DNA of 42,928 bases, taken from IMG/VR virus record IMGVR_UViG_3300047382_000745, positions 1-42,928 of that record; one strand, given 5' to 3'. The notes beneath the pieces were generated by a model. It was not told the DNA's origin and made no database searches. It saw only the letters and a list, made by a program, of their open reading frames with translations. The translations under genes and the position numbers were made by a program. This document shows positions 1-42,275 of this stretch, piece after piece; within the stretch, counting starts at the first letter, position 1, and each line of letters begins with the position of its first letter. The stretch is from a virus.

Positions 1-390
1 ACAAGAACCGTAATTAATACTTTTGCTTGTAGTGTTGTCGGAGAACACTGTTACAAGATTACCTGTGTTTTCACCATTAGCATTTTTCTCACAATACGTT
101 CGTGTTACTGTAACATCCGGTACCGGGAGTGGACAAAGGAATGCACTTGTTGTTCGTGTTTCTGTACCGTCTGACATTTCTACTATAAACACACCTGTGT
201 TGCCATTACTATCTTGTTCACAATACGCCTTCACTACAGTAGGTGGAGGTGGAGGTGGAGGTGCAACCGGCAATGGACATGTGCTAACATCATATACTTT
301 CTTTCGACTGTCATCATCGTAGATATCTATACGATAACCAGTGTTCACACCACCCGGTCTTTCGCAGATTGATTCTATAACTGTAGGTCC
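1..390 (-). repeat. Three tandem Cys-containing repeats of about 42 aa in the fibre
   Basis: The translated minus strand shows three successive units of the form TVxxxxCExxxGxNTG...CPLPV. Unit 1 runs about 388-262, unit 2 about 246-121, and unit 3 about 120 to the edge, where it is cut. Units 1 and 2 both end in CPLPV, and each complete unit has two cysteines that could pair in a disulfide. The units are separated by proline-rich spacers. The array probably continues beyond the left edge. Confidence 0.75.
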
Positions 391-3300
391 ATCAGGCGGT
401 GGCGGAGGTGGTGGCGGCGGAGGTGGCGGAGGTGGTGGCGGAGGTGAACCAGGTGGTACATCATAAGCGTCTGTTGTTACACCTATTCCAAAACTTGCCC
501 AATTACTCACTTTAGTAGTATCATTGCTCCAAACTACCCTATACTCACCATTGGCCGAAACTGAAAAATGTATAGGCATGCCAATCATGTTATTTCTTGC
601 ATTTTCCAATTGTCGCCAGTTTCTTGGTTGTGGTTCGTACTCAGCCGCAATCCTAAATTGTAGACCGTTGGTTGAAAAAATGGGAGGATTTGTGTCGCCA
701 CTCTGTGAAAAATTCACATTTCTTGTTTGAATAGTCCAACCGGAATCAAACGGTGGGTTACTTGCCCAAGTGAAAGGAGTAAAAACATTACCAACACGAT
801 TACCATTGTTATATGTTCCGTCTAATGCTAATCGTAAAGTAGCTCTGGTAAAAGGTCCCACCGTATTAATTGTGCTATCCTCAGTCCATACATCAAATTT
901 TTCGACTGAGTTGATATTAGGTACAGTAAGTGCAATATCTGTGTTTTTACCTATAACAGTAAAGTGGCCGAATAAAGTACCATTGGGTTTATACACCTGG
1001 ACGTTGGCTACTTGATCTTCGTAATTATTTGGGTATGCAGGCACATCAACACGTATATCATTTCTATAATATTTTGTTCCGGCATCCCATACAAGATCAA
1101 AACTGCCGCCTATGTTTCCTGTTAACGTAGGATACGTCCATGTCCAGCCGTTTCTCTCAGCAGTAGTAACATTACTTGCAAATACTCCAACTCCTGCAGG
1201 AGTAGTTTCGCCTTCGTCTACTATTACTTTTGCAAATGTATTACCATACGATGCTGATTCATTGTTAACTGTGACTGTTTTTGACTGATCGTTATTAGAA
1301 AAATCAGCCGCTTGTGCAACTACTCTGGCTACCACAGAACGTGATGTATGTAATTCCCTATCAAATTTGGGAGTATAACTAAATTTAATAGTGTCACCAT
1401 CTACTGCTGAAGCAGGTGAGGTAAGTCTTTTAGAAAGACTTGTCACTGCTAAGGCGCCATCAATATACTCTTTAAATTGGCATGCAAATTCTTTGCCGCC
1501 TACATTAGCACCCAGCAATTTTATAGTCATTGTTATGATACGTCCTTCTGTTACACTACTGCTCGATTCTAATGAGAACGTAGGTTTAGGCGGAATAAAT
1601 GCTCTTACTGCCACAGAACCTGATGCCCAATTACTTGTTGCTTGTCCATCTGTTAAATAATAACTAAAGGGTAATGTATGAGCCGCAGTGTCTGAAGATT
1701 TAGGAGTTACAGTGAGGTTGTTACCATTCAAAGAAAGATAAGGAATTTGTTGCCAACGTTTTACATCGCCTACTGATAACGTATCACCGTCTTCGTCGGT
1801 GCCGTATGCTGTTAAATCAATTGTGATAGGTGTATTATAATCTGTTTTCTTAGTAAAGTCATTTGCTATAGGAGCCACATTAGCCACTACTAATGTTCCT
1901 GTTACATTACCAATACTACTCACCGAACCACAACTGTTTTTAATTCTATATGATAAGTTAATTGTGCCTGTGTCACCTATACCACTAAACACAGTTCCTT
2001 TTAACGATCCGGGGCCGTTATTAGAGAGTTCAAAAAGTTCAAACGTGTAATTATTAACACTGGCGGAGTTAGAAGCACTATTGACTAAAAGTTGTTCTAA
2101 TTCTAATGTTCCATTATTTAAGATTGTTCCTAAGTCAACACCCGAAACGCTCACTTGTGGGCAGGCTTCAGCAACTGTGGTTATTGTTAATGTGGCTGAT
2201 CTTCGTCCACCAGCGGAATCTTCAATTTCGATGACGAATCTACTTTGGGTGCCACTTGCAACTCCAGAGGCATTTACGTCAATTGTGGTGTTGTTGTTTA
2301 ATGATATTGACGCACCATTATTACCGCCCCCGGGCCATGGTGTAATATTACTAATTGCCACAGGGCTACCTTCAAAGTCACTCATGTTCATTATGTTGAA
2401 CAATTCTATTGTGTTAGTAGCAAACTCTTCTATGAATATGGTTGCGTTTTCAATAAACGGTGCAACGTTAGTTTTCTTGACTAATATTGTTGCAGTGTTA
2501 AAGTCACTGACTGCACCTTGTGAGTCTTTGACCTTGTATTGAAAAGATGTTGTTCCTGCATAGCCTTTATTAAATGTCATTCCAAGTTTTGTGTCATTTA
2601 ATCTTAATCCAAATCCTTCAGCAACACCTGTTATACTTTTAGGTAAACTTGCTTCATCAATTGTCAAAGAATCATTGTTTACATCAAACGAATTACGTAA
2701 CAAACTAAAGTTAAGTTCATTTGGCGTCAACGCAGGATCGGGCGGTGACCAATTTATTGTAACATTGTATCCACCGTTTACTGGTGGATTATTACCAGGT
2801 GTCCAAGTAATAGTAGAAGTTTTAATACATGGGCCTCCTGGACGAGTGCTGTTATCAGTTATATCTACCTGCATAACTTGTGGCTCTCTTTCATTTGTGC
2901 CAGCCATATTTAATGTTATTTCTGTTCCTGATTGTAAAACAGTTCCAACACCGAGATAACCGATACCATCAATGGCAATTGCTTCGCCATCTGGATCGCT
3001 AACAATATCTGCCATGTCGATAGTTTTAGTACCGTTCACTGGTAATGCAACTTTGATATTCTGTGATTCAGGACATTGATTATCATTCTGAATAAATGTA
3101 CGTATTAATGATAATTGATGACCAGGGGTGGTGCTTGTATGCCTCTTTGTCTCTGCCACACCTGCTACATCATATGTGGCTTCAGCAACTACTTTTATTC
3201 TAAAATAGTAATCATCCCACCAAGGATTAGGTGTTTTAGATGTATCATAAGCAAAATTATTCATGCTAAATCGTGTTGAGAATTTATAACTGTGAGTAGG

Positions 3301-4239
3301 CTGACTGTTGTCCATTCCTACAGAAGGGCTATTACTTCCATTTTTAGTACCGTAAATGCCGTATTCGAAAAACGTAGGTCCAGGCCAAGTATCGTCTGTA
3401 ATGGGTGCCGGTCTACCTATACCTGCTTCTTTCATGTCTACCCAAGTTAAATTATCTTGGCTATATTGAAACGTTACATCTACAGTGGGTAATGATATGA
3501 ATGGTCTACCAAAATTTGTGCCGTTTACAAATTCAGTATCTACTTGTGCTATTTCATATCGAAAGGCACCGGAAGTGTCTTGTTTTGTAGTACTCTCGTA
3601 ATCTACTACTTGTAATTTTGTCGGACTTGCACTAACTCCATTAAAGAAAACGTACGGATCGCTGAGTTCAAATTCACTTACACTAAATGTAAATTGTTGA
3701 CTTGCAAAACTTGTAATAACCGGAGTTTCGTCTCCTGGGCTTGTTGCACTATGTGGATCTTGATCGTTAGGTGCATAGGCTGTATGGCGAATTTCTACTT
3801 TGTATGTGCCTGCATTTGCATCTGTGGGCTCTAATGTGATTAATTCGTTATTGGTATAACCAATATCAGTCCAGGTTGAACCTGACAGTTTGAACCAAGT
3901 TATTTCTGTTTCAAATCGTGTAGGCTTTGGTCTAAATATTGGATAAGCGGGTAGTTGTATTGATACACCTGTAGAAACTTGTACATTAGTTGAGTTATAA
4001 AAACCTCGATATGATGATTGTAAAGATTTTAAAAGTATAGTTGATTCTGAATATTCTTCTGGCGGTACTTTGCTTGTCCCCAAAAAATCTGTCATGTACA
4101 AATTATTTGTAGGCAGTTGAACTAAATTGCCATCGAAGTCAATTACTTCCAAACCTTTGTATGCGGCTAATTCAAGTCCTAAACCAAACTCAGCATTTAT
4201 GTCAGTTAGACTGATCGGCGTGGAAGTTTGTAATGCCAT
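1..4239 (-). CDS. Large tail fibre/adhesin with cadherin- and Ig-like domains, 3' end outside window
   Basis: The frame is open from the ATG at 4239 to the window edge, so at least 1413 residues are present without a stop. The N-terminus (MALQTSTPISLTDINAEFG) matches the short 'SGxISLxxINxEFG' motif that begins many phage virion proteins. The body is beta-rich: Ig-like segments lie around residues 90-300, and cadherin/tandem-95-like units follow, with Ca-binding-type motifs DPDGE (about residue 420) and DEDGD (about 810) and 'NVAPIANDF'-type unit starts. Near the edge come a 17-proline run and Cys-containing repeats. The start overlaps the stop of the upstream S74 fibre as TAATG, so the two are probably translationally coupled. 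This context suggests a host-binding distal fibre or adhesin. I cannot assign a T4 equivalent; the C-terminus and any receptor-binding tip lie outside the window. Confidence 0.85.
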   Translation of the reverse strand, partial: MALQTSTPISLTDINAEFGLGLELAAYKGLEVIDFDGNLVQLPTNNLYMTDFLGTSKVPPEEYSESTILLKSLQSSYRGFYNSTNVQVSTGVSIQLPAYPIFRPKPTRFETEITWFKLSGSTWTDIGYTNNELITLEPTDANAGTYKVEIRHTAYAPNDQDPHSATSPGDETPVITSFASQQFTFSVSEFELSDPYVFFNGVSASPTKLQVVDYESTTKQDTSGAFRYEIAQVDTEFVNGTNFGRPFISLPTVDVTFQYSQDNLTWVDMKEAGIGRPAPITDDTWPGPTFFEYGIYGTKNGSNSPSVGMDNSQPTHSYKFSTRFSMNNFAYDTSKTPNPWWDDYYFRIKVVAEATYDVAGVAETKRHTSTTPGHQLSLIRTFIQNDNQCPESQNIKVALPVNGTKTIDMADIVSDPDGEAIAIDGIGYLGVGTVLQSGTEITLNMAGTNEREPQVMQVDITDNSTRPGGPCIKTSTITWTPGNNPPVNGGYNVTINWSPPDPALTPNELNFSLLRNSFDVNNDSLTIDEASLPKSITGVAEGFGLRLNDTKLGMTFNKGYAGTTSFQYKVKDSQGAVSDFNTATILVKKTNVAPFIENATIFIEEFATNTIELFNIMNMSDFEGSPVAISNITPWPGGGNNGASISLNNNTTIDVNASGVASGTQSRFVIEIEDSAGGRRSATLTITTVAEACPQVSVSGVDLGTILNNGTLELEQLLVNSASNSASVNNYTFELFELSNNGPGSLKGTVFSGIGDTGTINLSYRIKNSCGSVSSIGNVTGTLVVANVAPIANDFTKKTDYNTPITIDLTAYGTDEDGDTLSVGDVKRWQQIPYLSLNGNNLTVTPKSSDTAAHTLPFSYYLTDGQATSNWASGSVAVRAFIPPKPTFSLESSSSVTEGRIITMTIKLLGANVGGKEFACQFKEYIDGALAVTSLSKRLTSPASAVDGDTIKFSYTPKFDRELHTSRSVVARVVAQAADFSNNDQSKTVTVNNESASYGNTFAKVIVDEGETTPAGVGVFASNVTTAERNGWTWTYPTLTGNIGGSFDLVWDAGTKYYRNDIRVDVPAYPNNYEDQVANVQVYKPNGTLFGHFTVIGKNTDIALTVPNINSVEKFDVWTEDSTINTVGPFTRATLRLALDGTYNNGNRVGNVFTPFTWASNPPFDSGWTIQTRNVNFSQSGDTNPPIFSTNGLQFRIAAEYEPQPRNWRQLENARNNMIGMPIHFSVSANGEYRVVWSNDTTKVSNWASFGIGVTTDAYDVPPGSPPPPPPPPPPPPPPPPPDGPTVIESICERPGGVNTGYRIDIYDDDSRKKVYDVSTCPLPVAPPPPPPPTVVKAYCEQDSNGNTGVFIVEMSDGTETRTTSAFLCPLPVPDVTVTRTYCEKNANGENTGNLVTVFSDNTTSKSINYGSC
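241..261 (-). repeat. Seven-proline tract (hexamer microsatellite)
   Basis: The plus strand reads aggtgg three times followed by agg, giving seven prolines between Cys repeat units 1 and 2. The period is a multiple of three, so slippage would change linker length without breaking the frame. Confidence 0.85.
394..444 (-). repeat. 17-residue polyproline tract
   Basis: All 17 consecutive minus-strand codons are CCT, CCA or CCG, giving an uninterrupted polyproline run between the folded beta domains and the Cys repeats. It probably forms a stiff polyproline-II rod. On the plus strand it appears as a G-rich agg/tgg/cgg microsatellite. Confidence 0.9.
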
Positions 4240-6479
4240 TAGTCTTTACCTAATTGTTTTTTTAAATCGTTAACTTCTGTTCTTAATTCTTTTACGGCTT
4301 CTACCAGCAGTCCAACCATGTTGCCATAAGCAAGGCTTAACATGCCGTTGTCATCTTCGTGTACCGCTTCAGGTAAAACTTTTTGTACTTGTTGTGCTAA
4401 ACAACCTGTTTGTGTTGCTTCAATATCTGTACGATCATATATTACGCCATCAATTTGATCTACCTTGTCTAAAGGATTTGATATAACTGAAATATTTGTT
4501 TTTAATCTTTCATCTGATGTTACTACAACATCGTTTGAGGCACTAAACGTACCGTCCATTCCCATGACAAACTGGTTTGTGACCGCTCCGTTAACTCTTG
4601 TTGCAAAACCAAAGTTACTGTTAAATATAATTTCATTTGTTTGATCAGAAAATTCTATTCCAGCATTAACATTTATTCTCTGAGAAAAATCATTTACTCC
4701 AGCAAAAGTATTAGCAATATCTCTACGTGCAAACTTACTTGAATCTAACCCGTCGAGTGTGTCTGCATCAACAGTTGAATTGAGACCAATCACGCCAGTT
4801 GAACTATCATACGTTACTGGTGAACTTGCACTAATTAAATCTCTAACTTGGGCATCTGTTCTTTCAGTGAAACTAATTCCACCAGTTGAACTATCATACG
4901 AAATAGAACCACTTGCACTGATTGTGCCTCTGATTTCACTTTCACTTGGTCCAGTGTGAGTGAATACACCAGTTCCACTATCATAACTTAAATTGCCAAA
5001 TCCAGAAGATGTTGCACTGACGTTACTTCTTACTCTTGCAGGGGTAAAGTATAATTTATTGCCTTCGGTTATATCTGTTGTGCTAAATTGATTTATGTCT
5101 ACTTCAATGTTATTTGCGTTTACAAGTATGCCAGTTCCTTGACCAACATCCATTGTGATAACTTTACGTGACACTGCTCCACCAGGTCCAAATGCATGGG
5201 CTGAATCTGATATTGAACTTAAACCATTTCCGGCCGCAACATCAAAAATATCACTTGCTGGCTCTTGAAAGAACATTGCGCCACTGCCATCTGAGTACAT
5301 AACTTGTCCAGTTGTGCCTGCTGATGTTGGTAATTGGTAACCATCTACTGTTAAAGTAGTTGTGTTAATATTATCTGCATATATGTTATCAACTCTTTCA
5401 GAGGGAGAACCAATTTCAAATGTTCCACCTAAATTTAAACTTGTATTAATTGTTAGATTATCAAAGTAACCTGCATTAAAAGGTTCTGCAACAGATCCTG
5501 CATCAACAGTACTGCCTGCTTTAATTTGTATACTACCAGTTGTGCCATCACCTACAAAAAAGTTTGTACCGTGTATATCGGCAAAGTTAGAACTGCTTGA
5601 ACCTAAGTCATATGTATTGCTTGTGGCTGGAACACTGTCAGCACTGTCATAAAATACTTGACTTGCTGATATGTTTGCTTGATCTAAACCATATGAACCG
5701 AGGTTAAGTGCATAAGATGTATTTGCTCTATCGGATACATTTGCAACTTCAACTCTTGTTTTGTTATCTCGTCTATAGTTTGCACCTGGAACAATTGTTG
5801 TTCCAATACTTGTTGCATTATTTAATTCTGTATAGTAATTCCACTGGAAGCCTTGTGTTGTACTTAATGTATCTGCAACTGTGAACTCTGGATGATTACT
5901 GAATATAGCAATAATTGTTTCTGAATCAGGCGTATGCGTTGTTCCGTTTACTTCTACTAATGCTAACACAGCCTTTGTTAATGCTGTAGGCGATGTTGTA
6001 TCTTTTAAGAAAATTGTTCGCAGTTTACTACCGTATAAAGAACTTACACCTGCCTCTGTTGAATAATCATCGCTGACTTCTCCGGGCATGTTTGTTCTTA
6101 AATAATTGCTACCATCATGTATGAATAATTGGCCAATGTTTTTATTGTAGTACATTGTGCCTTCTATATTTTGTGCATTTGTATTTGCAGGAATTGATGT
6201 TTCAGTTATCAGAGGACCAATAGGTTGCCACGAGTTTGTAGCACTTCTAAATACTCTCATTCTAAATTCTGATCTGTCAAACCATAATTGACCATCTGTG
6301 GGTCTTAATGGAGCAGTCGAACTTGAAAAATTATCTAATAAATCTATCTGAGTTTTTGCAATTTTTTCACCGTAATTTTCATAATTACGTCCGACAAGCT
6401 CAATTGAAAAATCTTGGTTTACGCCACCGTCAGGTATAACTATTTGTTGTCCGTTGCTGTTGTCTATTACGTATGGCAC
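4239..6479 (-). CDS. Tail fibre with C-terminal peptidase S74 intramolecular chaperone
   Basis: This 746-aa protein has the N-terminus typical of T4-like marine phage fibres (VGRNYENYG at residues 30-38, then LRPTDGQLWFD). A long beta-rich shaft carries three exact 29-aa repeats (residues about 482-568). The last 92 residues form a peptidase-S74/endosialidase-type chaperone: SDERLKTNI begins at residue 655, followed by GCLAQQVQKVLPEAV and a terminal helix (LVEAVKELRTEVNDLKKQLG). In this family the C-domain assists trimer folding and usually releases itself by cleavage at the Ser-Asp site. The start is GTG, chosen because AGAGGA lies six bases upstream. The gene follows the virion protein at 6492-7157 and overlaps the adhesin start. 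It is likely a side or distal fibre; its receptor is unknown. Confidence 0.9.
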   Translation of the reverse strand: MPYVIDNSNGQQIVIPDGGVNQDFSIELVGRNYENYGEKIAKTQIDLLDNFSSSTAPLRPTDGQLWFDRSEFRMRVFRSATNSWQPIGPLITETSIPANTNAQNIEGTMYYNKNIGQLFIHDGSNYLRTNMPGEVSDDYSTEAGVSSLYGSKLRTIFLKDTTSPTALTKAVLALVEVNGTTHTPDSETIIAIFSNHPEFTVADTLSTTQGFQWNYYTELNNATSIGTTIVPGANYRRDNKTRVEVANVSDRANTSYALNLGSYGLDQANISASQVFYDSADSVPATSNTYDLGSSSSNFADIHGTNFFVGDGTTGSIQIKAGSTVDAGSVAEPFNAGYFDNLTINTSLNLGGTFEIGSPSERVDNIYADNINTTTLTVDGYQLPTSAGTTGQVMYSDGSGAMFFQEPASDIFDVAAGNGLSSISDSAHAFGPGGAVSRKVITMDVGQGTGILVNANNIEVDINQFSTTDITEGNKLYFTPARVRSNVSATSSGFGNLSYDSGTGVFTHTGPSESEIRGTISASGSISYDSSTGGISFTERTDAQVRDLISASSPVTYDSSTGVIGLNSTVDADTLDGLDSSKFARRDIANTFAGVNDFSQRINVNAGIEFSDQTNEIIFNSNFGFATRVNGAVTNQFVMGMDGTFSASNDVVVTSDERLKTNISVISNPLDKVDQIDGVIYDRTDIEATQTGCLAQQVQKVLPEAVHEDDNGMLSLAYGNMVGLLVEAVKELRTEVNDLKKQLGKD
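4776..5036 (-). repeat. Three 87-bp (29-aa) tandem repeats in the fibre shaft
   Basis: The 19-base core ccagttgaactatcatacg occurs at 4795-4813 and again exactly 87 bases later at 4882-4900; a diverged copy is at 4969-4987. Each 29-aa unit contains a SYDSxTG-type turn and an xhRxxISAS-type segment. These are shaft repeats expanded by duplication. Confidence 0.85.
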
Positions 6480-6493: not shown

Positions 6494-7157
6494 AACTTAG
6501 TTGTACACGAACAGTATAAATCACTTCGATGATTCTATTTGCACTTTTTTGCACAGGGTGAAATATCACGTGTGTCAACATAGTGCTGGTATTAATTTTT
6601 TCTTCTTCAGTTGCCAACGTGTCGTCTGTTGGATAACTGAATAATGCAAGTTCATCAAATATATAATCGCCTTCGTTAGTTGTGCTACTGTCAAACACGT
6701 CTTGGTCGCCTGGCTCTCCGTAATTTAATGTGCAAGTAATTTTTATATCAGTGTAGCTCACACCGTTTATAATTTGAACATTGTTATTTGCAGTGTCAGT
6801 GTTAGAACTGTGACTGCTTACTGGTTTCCAGTATGTTCTGCTGTATAAGTTTGCACCTGATTCATATGCTTCTGTTACTCGAGGAGTTTTATATGCAACC
6901 TTGCCTGCTGTGTCAACGCTGGTTGCACCATTACCGAAAGACATAAAATGAATAAATGCATCTGCATTGTTGTTTAATGCTTGACCAACAATATAAGCCA
7001 TATTACCATAATGAATTGCATTACGTTTGTTTACAATCTCTTGGCCTGTTTCTTTGTCACGAATAACAATGTGTCCTGATACATTCAGTCCCATATTGTC
7101 ATCTGGTTTTTCTACATTTTTCATATCGTTATTCTCTTTGTTTTTTTCCTCGCTCAT
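6492..7157 (-). CDS. Virion structural protein of marine T4-like phages (function unknown)
   Basis: The protein is 221 aa from the ATG (MSEEKNKEN). A charged, probably disordered N-terminus of about 25 residues precedes a compact domain with NVSGHIVIRDKETGQEIV, RNAIHYGNMAYIVGQAL, FMSFGNGATSVD and a C-terminal TMLTHVIFHPVQKSANR. I recognise this as a small structural protein recurrent near baseplate and fibre genes of cyanophage-like myoviruses; no T4 counterpart comes to mind. An in-frame GTG at 7172 would add five residues, but it lies inside the late promoter, so the ATG at 7157 is preferred. It is the first gene of the fibre unit, and its product may link baseplate and fibre, which is inference from position only. 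Confidence 0.75.
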   Translation of the reverse strand: MSEEKNKENNDMKNVEKPDDNMGLNVSGHIVIRDKETGQEIVNKRNAIHYGNMAYIVGQALNNNADAFIHFMSFGNGATSVDTAGKVAYKTPRVTEAYESGANLYSRTYWKPVSSHSSNTDTANNNVQIINGVSYTDIKITCTLNYGEPGDQDVFDSSTTNEGDYIFDELALFSYPTDDTLATEEEKINTSTMLTHVIFHPVQKSANRIIEVIYTVRVQLS

Positions 7158-7162
7158 GCTGT

Positions 7163-7172
7163 TATTTATCAC
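7163..7172 (-). promoter_or_regulatory. T4-type late promoter for the fibre unit
   Basis: The minus strand reads GTGATAAATA, containing GATAAATA, one mismatch from the T4 late consensus TATAAATA. With T4 geometry (-13 to -6) the start site is 7157, the A of the ATG. The same ten bases precede gp25 and gp48. AAGGTGAT overlapping the box could act as a weak ribosome binding site on read-through transcripts. Confidence 0.7.
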
Positions 7173-7194: not shown

Positions 7195-10100
7195 TTATAG
7201 TTCGTGTAAGAATCTCATAATACTTGATGCTGATGTAAAGTCTGCATTGGCTCTATCTGCTAAACTTAATGCACTATCGCTTAATTGTACTGCTTTATCC
7301 CATGCATCTTCTACATCTGTTGCATAATCATATGAACTTACTTGTACATTTGCTGAATCTACAAACAAATTAGTAACATCTAAGTTACCTGCTGTTCCGT
7401 ATGCAAAACTGCTTGTTATTGATATTACACTGCCGTTTATTGCAGAAACTCTCACAACATCATTGTAACTACCGTCAGTTACATTTGTAATTCTAATACC
7501 TTCGTTAACTTCAAGACTTAATGCACTTGATAATGTCACGTCAGCAGTTGTGTTTGTAACGTTACTAACAGTTGCAAAAGCATTGCTAATAGTTAAATCA
7601 CTTCCTGATATTTCATCCCATGCCTTAGTTGGAGTCCATATATCATCTGCTGTGCCTAAAACACCATCCGGGCCCACACCGCTAAATACTGCTTGGTCCC
7701 ATGATGTAGGAGTTGAATATACTGCACCTAAGTCTAACCATATGTTTCCTTGCGGATTTAAACTATCAAACTGATCAACTTCTTCTGCACTGTAAACCTT
7801 TGCACCAATTGGGTGAGATTCAATACTTGTACCTTCTGCTCCACGTACTAATGCACTTAATTCGTTACCATTCTTTTTACCGTAGTAGATCAATTCATGT
7901 CCTACCCAAACTTTACCAGGTGCTATAGTTGTTACTTGCGGTAAGAAACTTGCATCTGCCATTGTTATACTGCTGGCAAATGTGTCGAGTGCTTTAGTCA
8001 GTGTACTACTTGTTCTATCAATAATACGTGTATGACTTACATCACCAAACAAGTTCATGTGCGTTCTGTACGTAACTGGTCTTGCACTTGGAGATACTTT
8101 AGCATGTTGTATATTACCGTTTGCATGTGAATGCGTAGTAACTGTGAATATAATACTTTCCAGTGGATCAATTAGTGCAAGTTCTTCTGGTCTCTCTTCA
8201 CCATATAATACTCTCTGGAACGTTACTCCATCGAATCCTTCGTAACTGTCATTGTTTCTACGCAACGTTACATTTCCTTGTTTCACAGTGTCGAATACAC
8301 CCTCATAACTAACAAGTTGTGTTACACTATCCCATTCAACATCACCAGTACCAACAGTTTGGATGCCACCATATGAGGCATCAGTTGTTACTACTGTGTC
8401 TTTGGTAGTATTTTCGTCCCACGGTATTGTGTCAAATCCAAAGTCTGATTGTACCTTGCTTAAATAATCAGTGTCTGCTAAGGCAGTTGCAAATACTTTA
8501 CCATCAAGTAATTCACCGTTAAAGTTACCACCTGACTTGTCTTTTACTAATGCAATAGTTCTATCAAGTGCTCCAGCAGTTACCATAGCAGTTATTACAG
8601 ATGCATTACCTACAATACTTGCATTCGAACTTGCCGTTACATCATTGTGATGAGTATTTATTTCTGCAACAAACAGTGCTTGTACAGCCTGATCAAATTT
8701 AAATATTCTATCAGTTGCTGAAATATCTGTATTTGCTGACACTTCTAATTTTGTCATTTGTGTTAACATTGCAATGTTTTCACCAATGCTATTATCTTCT
8801 GGTGTTGTTGTAGGATTCCAATTATACTTTGTTAGTTTCCAGTTAGTTCTATCAAACACAATCTTAGTGTTTCCTTTACGTATTGGATCCTGTGTTTTAT
8901 TACTGATACTGTAGTAATTTTTATACTGTGGGTCATTTGCTAATATGTCAGCATCTGCTTGTAAGAAGTCATCAAGTATTCTCACTGTGCCAGTTACAGC
9001 ATCAACATATGGTGCTTTATCAAAATCACTAATTGTTTGCGAACCTATACTTTCAATAGGTGTACGTTTACCATCTTTGTACTCACGTATTTTACTACTG
9101 AAAGGCTTAACCTCATTCATATAGTCGAGTACTTTCTGGAAGTTATCTGGTCTAAATCCTGTGAATTGTATTAAGTCATCTTCTTCTTTTTCGATGTACA
9201 AATAAGAAGTTTTGAATGCCCAGTTCAATTGTTGCTGTTCAATGTATGCATACTTCAGCATTTCAAAGAATAACTCGTTCCAGTATTCAGTGTTCACAAA
9301 CACATTATCTTTAAGTGCTGTGAGTAACAATCTTAATTCATTTGCCAGTGTACTGTTTTGTTCATCAGTGTAAGTTGCTGGCTTTAATCTAATAGTATCG
9401 TTAATACTTGCAATTAGTTTAAAGTCTGCTTTGCTTGCCTGATATATCCACAGTTGCGAAGCAGTTTCTTTTTTGGCTTTTACTTGTACCACAGTGCCAT
9501 CAGTAATATTGTTTAATCGTTTAAGTTCAGATACACTGCTAACATTAAACACAGGCTTATAACTTTGATTATATCTTATTTCTTGATTAGTAATAGGATC
9601 TATTCTGTCCACTGCATACCATGTGGTATTTTCTATGTATGTTCTGGTAGTAGGCAGTGTGTTATCCCAATTGTTAAATTGTGTGCTTAGTTTTAATTTA
9701 GACAACGTATTGTTTAACACATTTACCATAACTCTACGTGCTTCAGTGATATCTTTAAACATTGTCTGTCTTGGACGGAATGCAATACCGTATCTTTCAA
9801 TTTCACTTAATCTTGTATCAGGTACACTTTGCCCAATTGCATTCTCACCTGATAAACTATCAATCAGTTTATCTGTGATATGCTCAGGTATGTGGCTATT
9901 GTTATCGCCTTGTCTTAACAGTTTCCATGCTTTGTGATTTATGCTTGACGGTAATACATTTCTACTAAAGTTAATTTGTAGATTGTTTTCTGCATCCATT
10001 GTTTGATCAATGTTTGTCAGTGCTAAACTTTCATCGCTGATAAAACTGATCAAGTTTAGTCCGTAACCACGTGGATTAGAAATATATTTTGCAAGTGTCT

Positions 10101-34046: not shown

Positions 34047-34418
34047 TTACATACCCTCTGCTGTTTCTCTGATATACATTAAGTACAGAGTATCTTCGTT
34101 TTGTGTGGGTATAAATCTTAAATCTATGTCTACCCTAATTGCATGTTCTAATGCTGTTACTGTAGTTTTTAATAGTGATACTCTTGGATCACGTGCTACA
34201 ATTTTATCGACATCTTCTTCTATGTCTGTAACCACTTTTGGTGACATTGGATCCATTAATAAATCCCAAACAATGCTACCAAAGTTTGGTCGCATAACTC
34301 TTTCTCCACGTTTTGTGTAGAATTCGTTTTTTAAATCACGCTTCACAAGTTCATCGCCCGACAATGTATACGGAGCGTTAATTGTATCTACAGTATTAAA
34401 TCCTCTGAAGTTTGCCAT
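34047..34418 (-). CDS. 25: Baseplate wedge protein gp25-like
   Basis: From the ATG (MANFRGFNTVD) this is a 123-aa protein, close to the 132 residues of T4 gp25. The GPW/gp25 family signature is clear: KNEFYTKRGERVMRPNFGS, then VWDLLMDPM, and a C-terminal beta-alpha part with IRVDIDLRFIP. In T4, gp25 sits in the inner baseplate with gp6 and gp53 and helps trigger sheath assembly. An upstream in-frame GTG at 34433 would add five residues, but it is the first base of the late-promoter motif, so the ATG is preferred. No clear Shine-Dalgarno precedes it, consistent with a leaderless transcript. It heads the unit gp25, gp6, giant gene. Confidence 0.92.
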   Translation of the reverse strand: MANFRGFNTVDTINAPYTLSGDELVKRDLKNEFYTKRGERVMRPNFGSIVWDLLMDPMSPKVVTDIEEDVDKIVARDPRVSLLKTTVTALEHAIRVDIDLRFIPTQNEDTLYLMYIRETAEGM

Positions 34419-34423
34419 ACAAG

Positions 34424-34433
34424 TATTTATCAC
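34424..34433 (-). promoter_or_regulatory. T4-type late promoter for gp25-gp6-giant unit
   Basis: The minus strand reads GTGATAAATA, followed by CTTGT and ATG. With the octamer at -13 to -6, +1 is the A of the gp25 ATG at 34418. It is the only evident late signal between the terminator at 34817 and gp25. Confidence 0.75.
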
Positions 34434-34816: not shown

Positions 34817-34842
34817 AAAAAGGGGGCTATGCCTCCTTTTTT
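34817..34842. terminator. Intrinsic terminator between convergent genes, probably bidirectional
   Basis: AAAAAGGGGGC-TAT-GCCTCCTTTTTT forms an 11-base-pair stem with one G-U wobble and a three-base loop, ending in a T run on the plus strand. Read on the minus strand it is also a hairpin ending in TTTTTG, with the wobble becoming an A-C mismatch. It starts three bases after the 80-aa gene, and its arm overlaps the stop codon of gp5. Confidence 0.8.
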
Positions 34843-37513
34843 ATGAGTCGAGATTATTAATTGCGTCTGCTATTGTGAACTTCAGGCTGGTAGGATTAAG
34901 TACTTCTTCGTAATATTTGTCTCTGGAATTATCTACTGCTTCTGCTAACAACAAGAAGTTTACACTTCCACCCTCTGTTCCTGTGGAAACATCAATATTT
35001 TGACCTTCTTGACCGTCTGGTGTTTGGAATACACTTGCTTGATACTGTCTCATTTGATGTAAGTTTGGATTTTCTACTAACTTAGATGAACCTGGTTGTT
35101 TACTCAATACCCACCCAGACATAAAATACGGTACTCTGTGATATTCACCGTTGTTTAATGCTTGTAGTACGTTGCTGTTTTTAAAGTTATCCGGGCCTAT
35201 ACTTCGTGCAAATTCAGTAAGTGCTAATTGCTGGTTGTCATTGATAGGAACTGCAATACTATCGCTTACATTGTTCCATGTTTGTTGCATATCACCAACA
35301 AGACCTAATGTTTCTCCCACAGGACCAATACCTTGTGAGAAGTCAACAATTTTATTGCCAAATTGATCTTGGAATATTTTACCAGGGCCATCTGGTATCA
35401 TGTCTATGCCCTGTGCTTTTAATTGCGATTCGAGATCTTGTAAAGAACTTGCTGATGCCATTGCTTGATCGATTGCACCTTTCATTTGTCCTAATTGTCC
35501 TTCTAATAAATCTGTAGGTAGACCGAGATCGTCTAAACTAAACATTTTTAATCTTGCTTCTACTTCCTGCAATTGTTTCCCAATACCAATAATCTTTTGT
35601 CCAAGTGCATTTGTAGTTGGAAAACGTATAGGAGGAATAGCCGCTTTGAGACCATTTACTAATGCTCCCAATCCTGCTATTTCTAATAGTTTTGTTGCCG
35701 CGGCATCTTTGAAATTATTTAATACACCTTGGACATCAGCATACTGTGGTATGCCATCTAAGTACCCTTGAACATCTGGTAATGCACTGTCTATGAGAGC
35801 TCCTGCTTGGGCTGAAGCGTCAGTGACTGCATTGCTAACTGAGGAAATAGCCGCCCCTGCTTCGTCTACATATCCTGTGCCAACTTCTGCACCGTCTGGA
35901 GTTTGTGCATCGGCCGGCGCCTGTGCCTTCTGACTCACAGCATTTGCTGGAGTATTTTTAAGCACACTTTCTGATTGAGCTTGTTCTTCTGCTTCACTGG
36001 CCGCTATTGGATCGTATTGAGAGTGTCCTATATAAGGTTCGTTTGTGAGCAATACTCCTACTATGGTTTCTATTTTATCTTGCTTACCTTGACGTTTTCC
36101 GGCAGTTGGTGCTCCTGCACTGTCTCCAGTTGTTGCACCTGCTTCGTCAAATTCTGCTTTTTCTGATGGCGCATCTTTTCTACCAGTGAGTCCCATTTGT
36201 GGTGCAGGTATAGCCGGGAGAGCAGGAAGTGCCGGAGGACCGCCACTGTTAAGTAATATTGTTGGTGCTAAAACACTGGTAGGTCCACCTGAACTTACAT
36301 TAAACCCAGCCGCACTTAATATGCTTGTGGGCATTGTACTTTGCATCTTGATTGGTCCGGTAGCCGCTAATAAGTCCATGCCTAATGGGCCACCGGCAGT
36401 TGCCGCTAATCTTCCACCAGCATTTAAATCAATATCGCCGCCGTTTGCAGTAATTTGCGTATTCAATCCACCGTATGCTGTTAAATCTCCTGAGCCTTCA
36501 ATTCTTAAATTACCGCCTGTTCCTAATGGTGGTAATCCTATAGCACCTAATGGATTAGAACCTTTGTATTCGCCACCTGTGGTATCACCTGCGGCTTTTA
36601 TATTAATATCTTGTCCTGCTTCAATGTTTATGTCTTGATCAGCACGTAAGTGGAAACTGCCTTTTGCTCTAAAGCCTATACTGCCTTCGCCAAAGAAATT
36701 TATATCACCTGTGCGTGTTAGTTCTACCCATGCAGAACCTTCCTTGTTGATCATGTAAATAACACCTGTGGTGTCATCCATTAAAATTTGATTACCGCCT
36801 GCTGTTCTAATTCGTATGTTTCTGCTATTGAGATTATCATCCATCACAAATTGGTGTCCACCTAATCTGTGATTAAAATTTTCAGGGTCTCTGGGCCCTG
36901 GTGTTAATATACCAAATACTTCACTGGGAGATTCTCTCCTTGCACCAGCCGTTCCTGCCCCTCTAAGCGGGTCATTTGCTAACCCTTGTCTTACTAACCC
37001 TTTTGCAATATCTACGTGTAGAGGGCGTGTAGCGTCGTTGTGCGTGGTCTTTTCGTCACGTTTATTCTTTTCAGCAACAGGTAATTTCATAGAAGGATCA
37101 GAGTAACTTTTTCCTGCAGGCATACCAGGTACCATGTGATTATATCTATCTGGGTACAAGCAACTTACTATAAAAGGAAACTTTGAATTACCGTCACCAA
37201 AACAACAAAGTACAAGGTTGCCTATGTCTGGTGGTACCATCCACATGCCGTAACTTTGTTGTGTGTCTACGTAACTTTCTATTTTTTCACCAATGCCTGC
37301 TGGATCAGTTCCACCTGCAAACGGCGAACTCCACATTGCGTCAAATAAACCGTCGTTAGATGATTTGTCTTTTGCCAACGTGGCTATGAAAACTTGTATG
37401 CGTCCTGTTCTGCTTAAATCTTTTGTGGCAGTAACTTGCCCAATATAAATTCCAAACATCGGACTGTTCTTTTGTATTCTTTTATAAGATTGATTTGATC
37501 GACTAATTGACAT
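34841..37513 (-). CDS. 5: Baseplate central spike gp5-like, without internal lysozyme
   Basis: The protein has 890 aa against 575 in T4. Residues about 17-130 are the gp5/VgrG OB-fold (FGIYIGQVTATKDLSRTGRI, MWSSPFAGG, GMWMVPPDIGNLVLCCFGDG). Residues about 240-420 are a repetitive spike-like beta-helix (INIEAGQDINIKAAGD). T4 gp5 carries a lysozyme between these parts; here that interval (residues 130-240) is short and lacks it. After the spike come an Ala/Pro-rich linker with EPYIGHSQYDPI, helical segments (about 530-720), and near residues 750-835 a stretch (LALTEFARSIGPDNF, NNGEYHRVPYFMSGW) resembling the C-lobe of GH24 phage lysozymes. The GH24 N-lobe with its catalytic Glu is not recognisable. 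In T4, gp5 pierces the outer membrane and digests peptidoglycan; only the piercing role is clearly supported. It is the last gene of its unit. Confidence 0.85.
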   Translation of the reverse strand: MSISRSNQSYKRIQKNSPMFGIYIGQVTATKDLSRTGRIQVFIATLAKDKSSNDGLFDAMWSSPFAGGTDPAGIGEKIESYVDTQQSYGMWMVPPDIGNLVLCCFGDGNSKFPFIVSCLYPDRYNHMVPGMPAGKSYSDPSMKLPVAEKNKRDEKTTHNDATRPLHVDIAKGLVRQGLANDPLRGAGTAGARRESPSEVFGILTPGPRDPENFNHRLGGHQFVMDDNLNSRNIRIRTAGGNQILMDDTTGVIYMINKEGSAWVELTRTGDINFFGEGSIGFRAKGSFHLRADQDINIEAGQDINIKAAGDTTGGEYKGSNPLGAIGLPPLGTGGNLRIEGSGDLTAYGGLNTQITANGGDIDLNAGGRLAATAGGPLGMDLLAATGPIKMQSTMPTSILSAAGFNVSSGGPTSVLAPTILLNSGGPPALPALPAIPAPQMGLTGRKDAPSEKAEFDEAGATTGDSAGAPTAGKRQGKQDKIETIVGVLLTNEPYIGHSQYDPIAASEAEEQAQSESVLKNTPANAVSQKAQAPADAQTPDGAEVGTGYVDEAGAAISSVSNAVTDASAQAGALIDSALPDVQGYLDGIPQYADVQGVLNNFKDAAATKLLEIAGLGALVNGLKAAIPPIRFPTTNALGQKIIGIGKQLQEVEARLKMFSLDDLGLPTDLLEGQLGQMKGAIDQAMASASSLQDLESQLKAQGIDMIPDGPGKIFQDQFGNKIVDFSQGIGPVGETLGLVGDMQQTWNNVSDSIAVPINDNQQLALTEFARSIGPDNFKNSNVLQALNNGEYHRVPYFMSGWVLSKQPGSSKLVENPNLHQMRQYQASVFQTPDGQEGQNIDVSTGTEGGSVNFLLLAEAVDNSRDKYYEEVLNPTSLKFTIADAINNLDS

Positions 37514-40313: not shown

Positions 40314-41263
40314 TAAATAAATCCACCTTTGTATAGTTGTCCACTTGCAAGTGACTCGAGATTGAAATGTCTTCTGAGTTTGTGTGGTGTGTATGTAGGT
40401 TTAAGGTTAACCATAATATTTGTTCTTGTAGGTACATAAGTTATTTCTTCGTTAACTTGTACTGGAACATAATCAACATCATCTGGATATTGAACTGTAT
40501 AGTTTTGCACAACAACTGGCACTTTGTTAAATCCGTGATCTCCAAGATACTCAAATACCATAACTGGAGGCGGTGTGCCTGCTTTGCCTGCCGCAACTGC
40601 TTGATCACCAAAGTAACCTTTGGTAGCAATCTTTAAAAATGTTAATACTGCTAACAAGTATCGTGCTTCATATATATCATCTGCTGTGAAGTCTGCCGCT
40701 ACTGGAATGTCAGGCGGCGTACTGCTTTGATATGTGTTTATAGGATAGTTCATGCCTTGCATTTCTGCAGAGTCATAGTTAGCCATGCCGCTTAAAAATA
40801 TCTGCGGTGTATATTGCCAAACTAAACCACCTGATTCTTCTATTGGTTTTAACAAGTAGTCGGCGTTTGAAATGCCTTCATTGTCCAGCATCTTAGCATA
40901 AAAATTTGCCTTGCCACCGTTTTTGGGTCTTAGCCTTGCTCTCCAATCATATGTATTTTGTAGTTGTGGTGTAGTGGAATTTCCCACAGGCTGACCAGCA
41001 ACAATATTGTTAAGTTCAGATCTTGCTTGGGCCGTTTGACGTGCAATGATATCACGATATCCACTGTTTGTGAATTGATCGTTGGGTGTGCCTATTAAAT
41101 TATCTAATAAGCCTCCTGCTAATCCTTGCAATGCAGGTGGTAATTGATTGACGCCGCCGCGAACAAAACTTGCTAACTGCTGATTTACAGCATTAACTGA
41201 TTGCGGTGCTACTCGGCCTATGCCTGAAGCGAAAGAATTGTCTCTACCGTCTGTATCTGCCAT
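40313..41263 (-). CDS. 48: Baseplate tail-tube cap protein, gp48-like
   Basis: This 316-aa protein starts at an ATG with AAGGAG eight bases upstream. T4 gp48 has 364 residues. The first 100 residues are Gly/Gln/Asn-rich. The folded part contains DWRARLRPKN, WQYTPQIFLSG, NYPINTYQSSTPPDIPVAADF, YEARYLLAVLTFLK and FEYLGDHGFNKVPVVVQNYT, a pattern I recognise from baseplate tube-cap proteins of marine T4-like phages annotated gp48. gp48 caps the hub and starts tail-tube polymerisation. It is the first gene of the late unit gp48, gp53, hub, gp5. The T4 paralogue gp54 is the main alternative name. Confidence 0.75.
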   Translation of the reverse strand: MADTDGRDNSFASGIGRVAPQSVNAVNQQLASFVRGGVNQLPPALQGLAGGLLDNLIGTPNDQFTNSGYRDIIARQTAQARSELNNIVAGQPVGNSTTPQLQNTYDWRARLRPKNGGKANFYAKMLDNEGISNADYLLKPIEESGGLVWQYTPQIFLSGMANYDSAEMQGMNYPINTYQSSTPPDIPVAADFTADDIYEARYLLAVLTFLKIATKGYFGDQAVAAGKAGTPPPVMVFEYLGDHGFNKVPVVVQNYTVQYPDDVDYVPVQVNEEITYVPTRTNIMVNLKPTYTPHKLRRHFNLESLASGQLYKGGFI

Positions 41264-41291: not shown

Positions 41292-41301
41292 TATTTATCA
41301 C
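41292..41301 (-). promoter_or_regulatory. T4-type late promoter for the gp48-gp53-hub-gp5 unit
   Basis: The minus strand reads GTGATAAATA, as at 34424 and 7163. T4 geometry gives +1 near 41286 and a leader of about 23 bases containing AAGGAG, so unlike the other two this unit has an ordinary leader. Confidence 0.75.
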
Positions 41302-41399: not shown

Positions 41400-42275
41400 A
41401 TGGCAGTTGCTAAAAAAACAAACTACCTCAACAACAAAGATATATTAAAAGAAATTCACAAAAGCAAAATTACATTTTGTTGGGTTATGGATGACAAATA
41501 TATACAAAACGATATTATCCTCGATGACGTCAGCAAAATTGATGCTACTGCATTACAGATTGCAAAAGACAATCAAGCATCGAGAATTCAATCAGAAGGC
41601 TACGCACAGGCAATGCTTGGTCATGACAAGAAAGATTACAGAAACAAACCTAAGCAAAAAGACTTTGCGGTGGACACTGCTACAATCAGTGACGAAGATG
41701 TGACTTTTAGAGTTATGACATACGAGCATATTCCTTTAGAGCCAGGTAGAAAAAGAAACCCAAAAAACGAAGCCGAAACAAAAGCCAAAGTAAACTTCCC
41801 ACCATTCAAGCATTATGCTTATGTTAATGGTGAGATCAAAGAGGTTGTAAGAAGCCACTGGGAAGGAAGTTTAAGTAATGGCCACTTCGAGCCTAACAAA
41901 GGACGTATTACAAATACACTCGGTACAATGTTTTTGAAATTAGTAGAAAGATATTCTCACAGGGCAAACTGGAGAGGGTACACATACGTAGATGAAATGA
42001 GAGGACAAGCACTTGTTCAACTTAGCCAAGTAGGCCTACAGTTCAACGAAGCAAAATCAGACAACCCATTTGCGTACTACACAGCCGCAGTTAATAACAG
42101 TTTCACAAGAGTTCTTAATCTTGAGAAACGTAATCAAAACATTAGAGATGATATTTTGATTGACAGCGGACATCTTCCAAGTTATAGTAGACAGATACAA
42201 CACGAAGATGAAATGCGTAGACTAAGAGAATCTACTGAATCAGAAACTAACGATATCGAGGCATTTGACCAATAA
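41400..42275 (+). CDS. 55: Late-transcription sigma factor gp55-like
   Basis: This 291-aa protein begins with YLNNKDILKEI (residues 9-19), aligning with the start of T4 gp55 (YVNNKELLQAI). It resumes the family core at about residues 169-262: TNTLGTMFLKLVERYS, then WRGYTYVDEMRGQALVQL and NPFAYYTAAVNNSFTRVLN, matching the sigma2-like region of gp55. T4 gp55 has 185 residues; the extra length is mainly an insertion at about residues 25-160. In T4, gp55 binds host RNA polymerase, recognises TATAAATA and contacts the gp45 clamp through a hydrophobic C-terminal tail. Here the tail (TESETNDIEAFDQ) is acidic with few hydrophobics. A sigma70-type promoter and AGGAG precede it, and it overlaps gp47. 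It is the likely reader of the three GATAAATA promoters. Confidence 0.88.
   Translation: MAVAKKTNYLNNKDILKEIHKSKITFCWVMDDKYIQNDIILDDVSKIDATALQIAKDNQASRIQSEGYAQAMLGHDKKDYRNKPKQKDFAVDTATISDEDVTFRVMTYEHIPLEPGRKRNPKNEAETKAKVNFPPFKHYAYVNGEIKEVVRSHWEGSLSNGHFEPNKGRITNTLGTMFLKLVERYSHRANWRGYTYVDEMRGQALVQLSQVGLQFNEAKSDNPFAYYTAAVNNSFTRVLNLEKRNQNIRDDILIDSGHLPSYSRQIQHEDEMRRLRESTESETNDIEAFDQ

Follow-up and report, generated by a model that had tools for sequence, protein, structure and literature searches.

The minus strand of the viral DNA studied here (the window, meaning the whole stretch of 42,928 bases that was analysed) reads GTGATAAATA ACAGC ATG from 7172 to 7155, and raises the question of whether a late promoter placed this close to a gene would start transcription on the start codon itself, so that the message would carry no leader. 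Our reading, to which we assign a probability of about 0.85 on the basis of the sequence comparisons described below, is that a late promoter recognized by a gp55-type sigma factor probably sits at a fixed distance of 5 nt ahead of the ATG in a subset of late genes, where it would give rise to leaderless late mRNAs.

The late box and its gene unit

The initial annotation had placed the end of a late box five bases before the ATG, and this was correct at every position (Table 1). GATAAATA agrees at 7 of 8 bases with TATAAATA, the late box of T4, which occupies positions -13 to -6 and whose T at -13 is poorly conserved among T4-like phages (PMC1524935). With such an arrangement and a spacer of 5 nt, the predicted +1 would fall on the A of the ATG. 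T4 late promoters, which depend on gp55, gp33 and gp45, and those of the window belong to one box family, are accompanied by a gp55-type sigma gene, and are used in front of virion genes; in the window, the octamers resembling TATAAATA lie on the strand of these genes. Unlike in T4, the box of the window group usually has G as its first base, and in a large subset of cases 5 nt separate it from an ATG, an arrangement counted 0 times in T4. The sigma factor is 45% identical to that of the PA5oct group of phages, its nearest isolates being PA5oct and jumbo phages of the GAP32/121Q type.

Table 1. Positions of the promoter elements and genes discussed, in window coordinates
Feature	Position	Strand	Remarks
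Late promoter box GATAAATA	7163..7170	-	Extended form GTGATAAATA, 7163-7172; box present in 73/77 ortholog loci
Spacer ACAGC, 5 nt, box to ATG	7158..7162	-	Pyrimidine at -1; 5 nt in 33/47 distinct ortholog promoters
Predicted +1, A of ATG start codon	7157	-	From T4 late spacing (-13 to -6) and the YA initiator signature in leadered promoters
phrog_11259 gene, 221 aa	6492..7157	-	Virion-region protein, function unknown; predicted leaderless mRNA
Tail fibre gene with S74 chaperone domain	4239..6479	-	Downstream in the phrog_11259 unit
Second late promoter, predicted leaderless, GATAAATA + CTTGT + ATG	34424..34431	-	Spacer exactly 5 nt; ATG at 34418
gp25 baseplate wedge gene	34047..34418	-	Predicted leaderless mRNA; orthologs retain the 5-nt spacer
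Third late promoter GATAAATA, leadered comparison	41292..41299	-	28 nt before ATG at 41263; AAGGAG; 316-aa gene
gp55-type late sigma factor gene	41400..42275	+	phrog_12791, E=3.5e-92; phrog_234

The window has three copies of the extended form GTGATAAATA, at 7172, 34433 and 41301, each of them on the minus strand and at a gene start. The name of fibre unit given earlier to the first of these transcripts was only loosely appropriate, since a fibre gene of the S74 type does come second but the first gene, phrog_11259, has no known function; a search of GTDB genomes with its protein, carried out for host inference, found no relative. Three long reading frames, all on the minus strand, were also noted in the window. 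A single ORF of 7548 aa (7195-29841) lies directly upstream of the phrog_11259 unit, and in Sinorhizobium phage Phosso a giant virion protein is likewise found upstream of the phrog_11259 homolog; an ORF of 1413 aa with polyproline stretches (1-4239) overlaps the S74 fibre gene at its stop and runs off the contig end; and 34841-37513 encodes a gp5-like baseplate hub protein of 890 aa in which a lysozyme domain is embedded.

Two classes of late promoters

When one mismatch is allowed, TATAAATA is found 107 times in the window against 118 expected from shuffles, which is chance level; the motif alone therefore proves nothing, and the evidence resides in its position relative to the ATG. The spacer was measured from each NATAAATA to the first following ATG that opens a reading frame of 60 aa or more, in the window and in four related IMG/VR contigs of 340, 251, 120 and 73 kb (G001, G002, G003 and G008), with gene starts in these metagenomic contigs taken from ORF calls made in the present analysis. 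No spacer of 0-4 nt was seen; 47 were of 5 nt, 6 of 6 nt, 6 of 7-8 nt and 2 of 9-15 nt, and beyond these 79 spacers formed a broad class between 16 and 45 nt. If spacers were spread evenly over 0-15, the excess at 5 nt would have a binomial probability of 4e-42, and permuted motifs in the same five sequences gave no comparable peak. That an AT-rich motif simply happens to precede an ATG would fit the chance-level frequency of the one-mismatch motif, but is already refuted by this histogram together with the conservation of the arrangement between orthologs at 30-73% protein identity, and we give it practically no weight. Recurrence at dozens of late genes looks like genome-wide design and not like coincidence. 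Sigma-70 -10 boxes placed in the equivalent leaderless position showed no clear peak at a start-compatible spacing. Among the matches to AGTGATAAATAN{0,14}ATG listed from the whole viral contig collection, unrelated phages were represented, and these matches were kept out of the evidence.

The two classes also differ in what surrounds the start codon. A Shine-Dalgarno-like sequence precedes only 3 of the 47 spacer-5 genes as opposed to 65 of the 79 in the long class (Fisher 7e-18), the start codon at spacer 5 is ATG at 47 genes, GTG at 1 and TTG at 1, and 5' structure is weaker at leaderless than at leadered starts (-2.1 vs -3.2 kcal/mol, p=0.005), the first 60 nt of the predicted phrog_11259 mRNA forming no stable fold. 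Within the leadered promoters, a pyrimidine-A step is present at positions 5-6 after the box in 40/79 compared to 21% elsewhere (p=6e-9). These are the positions where the C or T and the A of the ATG fall in the spacer-5 class, and the step thus provides support for +1 at the sixth base that is independent of the spacing transferred from T4; together, the two suggest the start site given in Table 1. A second, weaker YA peak at positions 7-8 (33/79) was also seen in the leadered promoters of the window and the four contigs; it is perhaps an alternative start position, and suggests some start heterogeneity.

Because the distance to the ATG is fixed in one class, the box could be imagined as a translation or RNA signal instead of a promoter. 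We consider this highly improbable, as an identical box is found 16-45 nt upstream of genes with a Shine-Dalgarno sequence of their own, fits the known gp55 late box, and is accompanied by a gp55 gene in the window.

With regard to gene content, the predicted leaderless class includes, besides many genes of unknown function, gp25, a gp13-like adaptor, the terminase large subunit, phrog_11259, a tail tube protein and virion structural proteins, and the leadered class the tail sheath, the portal, a tail fibre and ribonucleotide reductase. In the relatives, too, late boxes precede virion genes (terminase, gp13, gp25 and sheath).

Conservation among orthologs and distribution in other phages

Among viral contigs, 77 loci related to the phrog_11259 gene were identified, nearly all of them with the box, and their 47 distinct promoters have spacers of 5 nt (33), 6 nt (7), 8 nt (5) and 20 nt (2), the 6- and 8-nt spacers implying leaders of 1-3 nt in some orthologs. 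The gp25 spacer is 5 nt in the window and in all four contigs. More generally, 58 of 61 ortholog pairs between contigs keep their class (27 leaderless, 31 leadered and 3 mixed), whereas leadered spacers drift between orthologs, for instance from 17 to 28 nt. In 49 further contigs with GATAAATA-N0-15-ATG, most of the matches listed have 5 nt. Two proposals of the initial annotation, a T4-type late promoter with its predicted +1 on the A of the ATG and a leaderless late transcript, are supported by these results: the spacing is kept in orthologs and repeated across the genome, and spacing, class conservation and the absence of a Shine-Dalgarno sequence all point to a transcript that would begin with the start codon.

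The same annotation had further suggested that a read-through mRNA could use a Shine-Dalgarno sequence, and this part was not borne out. Such a dual mode, with leaderless late mRNA next to a leadered read-through message translated by way of AAGGTGAT, would draw on the AAGG that AAGGTGAT does contain, and read-through itself is plausible, as the 7548-aa ORF upstream stops at 7195 and a search for terminator-like sites between that point and the gene found none. The end of the AAGG, however, is 14 nt from the ATG, a distance too great for a good Shine-Dalgarno sequence. Only 3 of the 47 distinct ortholog promoters have an AAGG-like sequence at -20..-13, and none of the 47 has a Shine-Dalgarno-like 4-mer at -14..-4; moreover, the same AAAGGTGATAAATA is found at 41301, where the gene that follows has an AAGGAG of its own. 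We therefore consider a dual mode to be quite unlikely.

The spacing also bears on where the protein starts. Mechanical ORF calling chose the GTG at 7172, the first codon of GTGATAAATA, which at a 5-nt spacer is in frame (GTG ATA AAT AAC AGC ATG) and would yield a 226-aa protein from a leadered message. This GTG, however, is out of frame in orthologs with 6-nt spacers and missing in some others, and at many other spacer-5 genes the G is replaced by A, C or T, or there is no GTG. Of the 47 spacer-5 genes, 31 have no possible upstream start and 6 have an alternative in-frame ATG upstream, and no Shine-Dalgarno sequence was found before the alternative upstream starts of these genes. Due to the loss of frame in orthologs and the lack of an upstream Shine-Dalgarno sequence, the GTG was rejected as the start codon, and we regard it as very unlikely to be the real one.

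Outside of the window group, the clearest cases of the spacer-5 arrangement are two cultured SAR11 phages. In HTVC008M (NC_020484), 9 of 45 NATAAATA boxes have a spacer of 5 nt, and all nine ATGs are annotated starts, the genes including gp25, gp48, gp2 (DNA end protector), tape measure, curli CsgF and a 2OG oxygenase. Mosig has six such genes, with five on annotated starts and the sixth outside the stretch examined, and gp2 is among the spacer-5 genes of both phages. These pelagimyophages resemble the window group in having NATAAATA-N5-ATG, and differ from it in their smaller genomes (141-147 kb) and in belonging to a different T4-like branch. Spacer-5 genes were absent from T4, 121Q, Vibrio jumbo phage 2.275.O and Phosso; there were 2 in PA5oct, 1 in P-SSM2 and 3 in methylophage Melnitz, the latter a weaker case. 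The RaK2 record had one raw 5-nt match. Among cyanophage, alphaproteobacterial and vibrio T4-like phages, which also include P-SSM2, S-SSM5 had one such match and phiM12, Cr30 and KVP40 had none; Atu_ph07 had 5 among 38, counted with no ORF filter. Judging from these genomes, the arrangement appears to span the marine jumbo group and the SAR11 myophages, and to be rare, if present at all, in the enteric, vibrio and cyanobacterial relatives examined.

The Rak2-like jumbo phages (CBB, GAP32) are the nearest isolates by both sigma factor and phrog_11259 protein. The available part of the CBB account describes a late ATAAATA motif before structural genes in these phages, the same box as in the window group, and in that part a leaderless arrangement is not described (PMC5259590). 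They differ from the window group in that 121Q lacks a spacer-5 class and the RaK2 record has its single match.

Proposed initiation at a 5'-terminal AUG and its implications

Taken together, the window phage would belong to a marine group of T4-like jumbo phages whose gp55-type sigma factor would read the GATAAATA (NATAAATA) late promoter. In a defined subset of late genes, to which phrog_11259 and gp25 belong, the A of the ATG would be the first base transcribed, and the 5'-terminal AUG would presumably be bound by the 70S ribosome, or by the 30S subunit with initiator tRNA, without a Shine-Dalgarno sequence. Other late genes, such as those for the tail sheath, the portal and a tail fibre, would be transcribed from the same promoter placed 16-45 nt upstream, and would have an ordinary Shine-Dalgarno sequence.

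The message of lambda cI is a leaderless phage mRNA with a 5'-terminal AUG and no Shine-Dalgarno sequence, and mRNAs of this type share both features with the class predicted here. Leaderless phage mRNA is usually discussed by way of single genes, and the classical cases are indeed single genes, whereas the arrangement described here would be regulon-wide, taking in late genes both for the virion and for other functions, all controlled by one promoter family. Phage transcripts have also been asserted to be often leaderless (PMC5312081). The parts, namely the T4 late box and leaderless mRNA, are already known; we found no description in the literature of late genes that form a leaderless class in jumbo or T4-like phages, with most subscription papers lying beyond the search.

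A bolder extension would be a two-track late programme run from one promoter, in which position alone would sort leaderless from Shine-Dalgarno mRNAs, leaderless messages would be favoured late in infection through changed ribosomes, perhaps by way of a phage bS21, and gene dosage would be set at translation without regulators. We regard this as speculative and rather unlikely. A gene for a bS21-like ribosomal protein (PF01165, E=1.7e-12) is present at 145827-145979 on the minus strand of the 340-kb contig G001, and HTVC008M also encodes bS21. As a common factor, bS21 was found in only 1 of 12 fragments (G001), and was set aside as a general explanation.

A search for late promoters in pelagimyophages was reported as unsuccessful by its authors (PMC7029224), and promoters abutting the ATG, as our reading would have it, could account for this, as one possible reason. 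The reading also corrects gene starts, and the cultured SAR11 phage offers a system in which to test it. If it is true, the virus would select the route of translation initiation gene by gene through promoter spacing, regulon-wide, under its gp55 late promoter.
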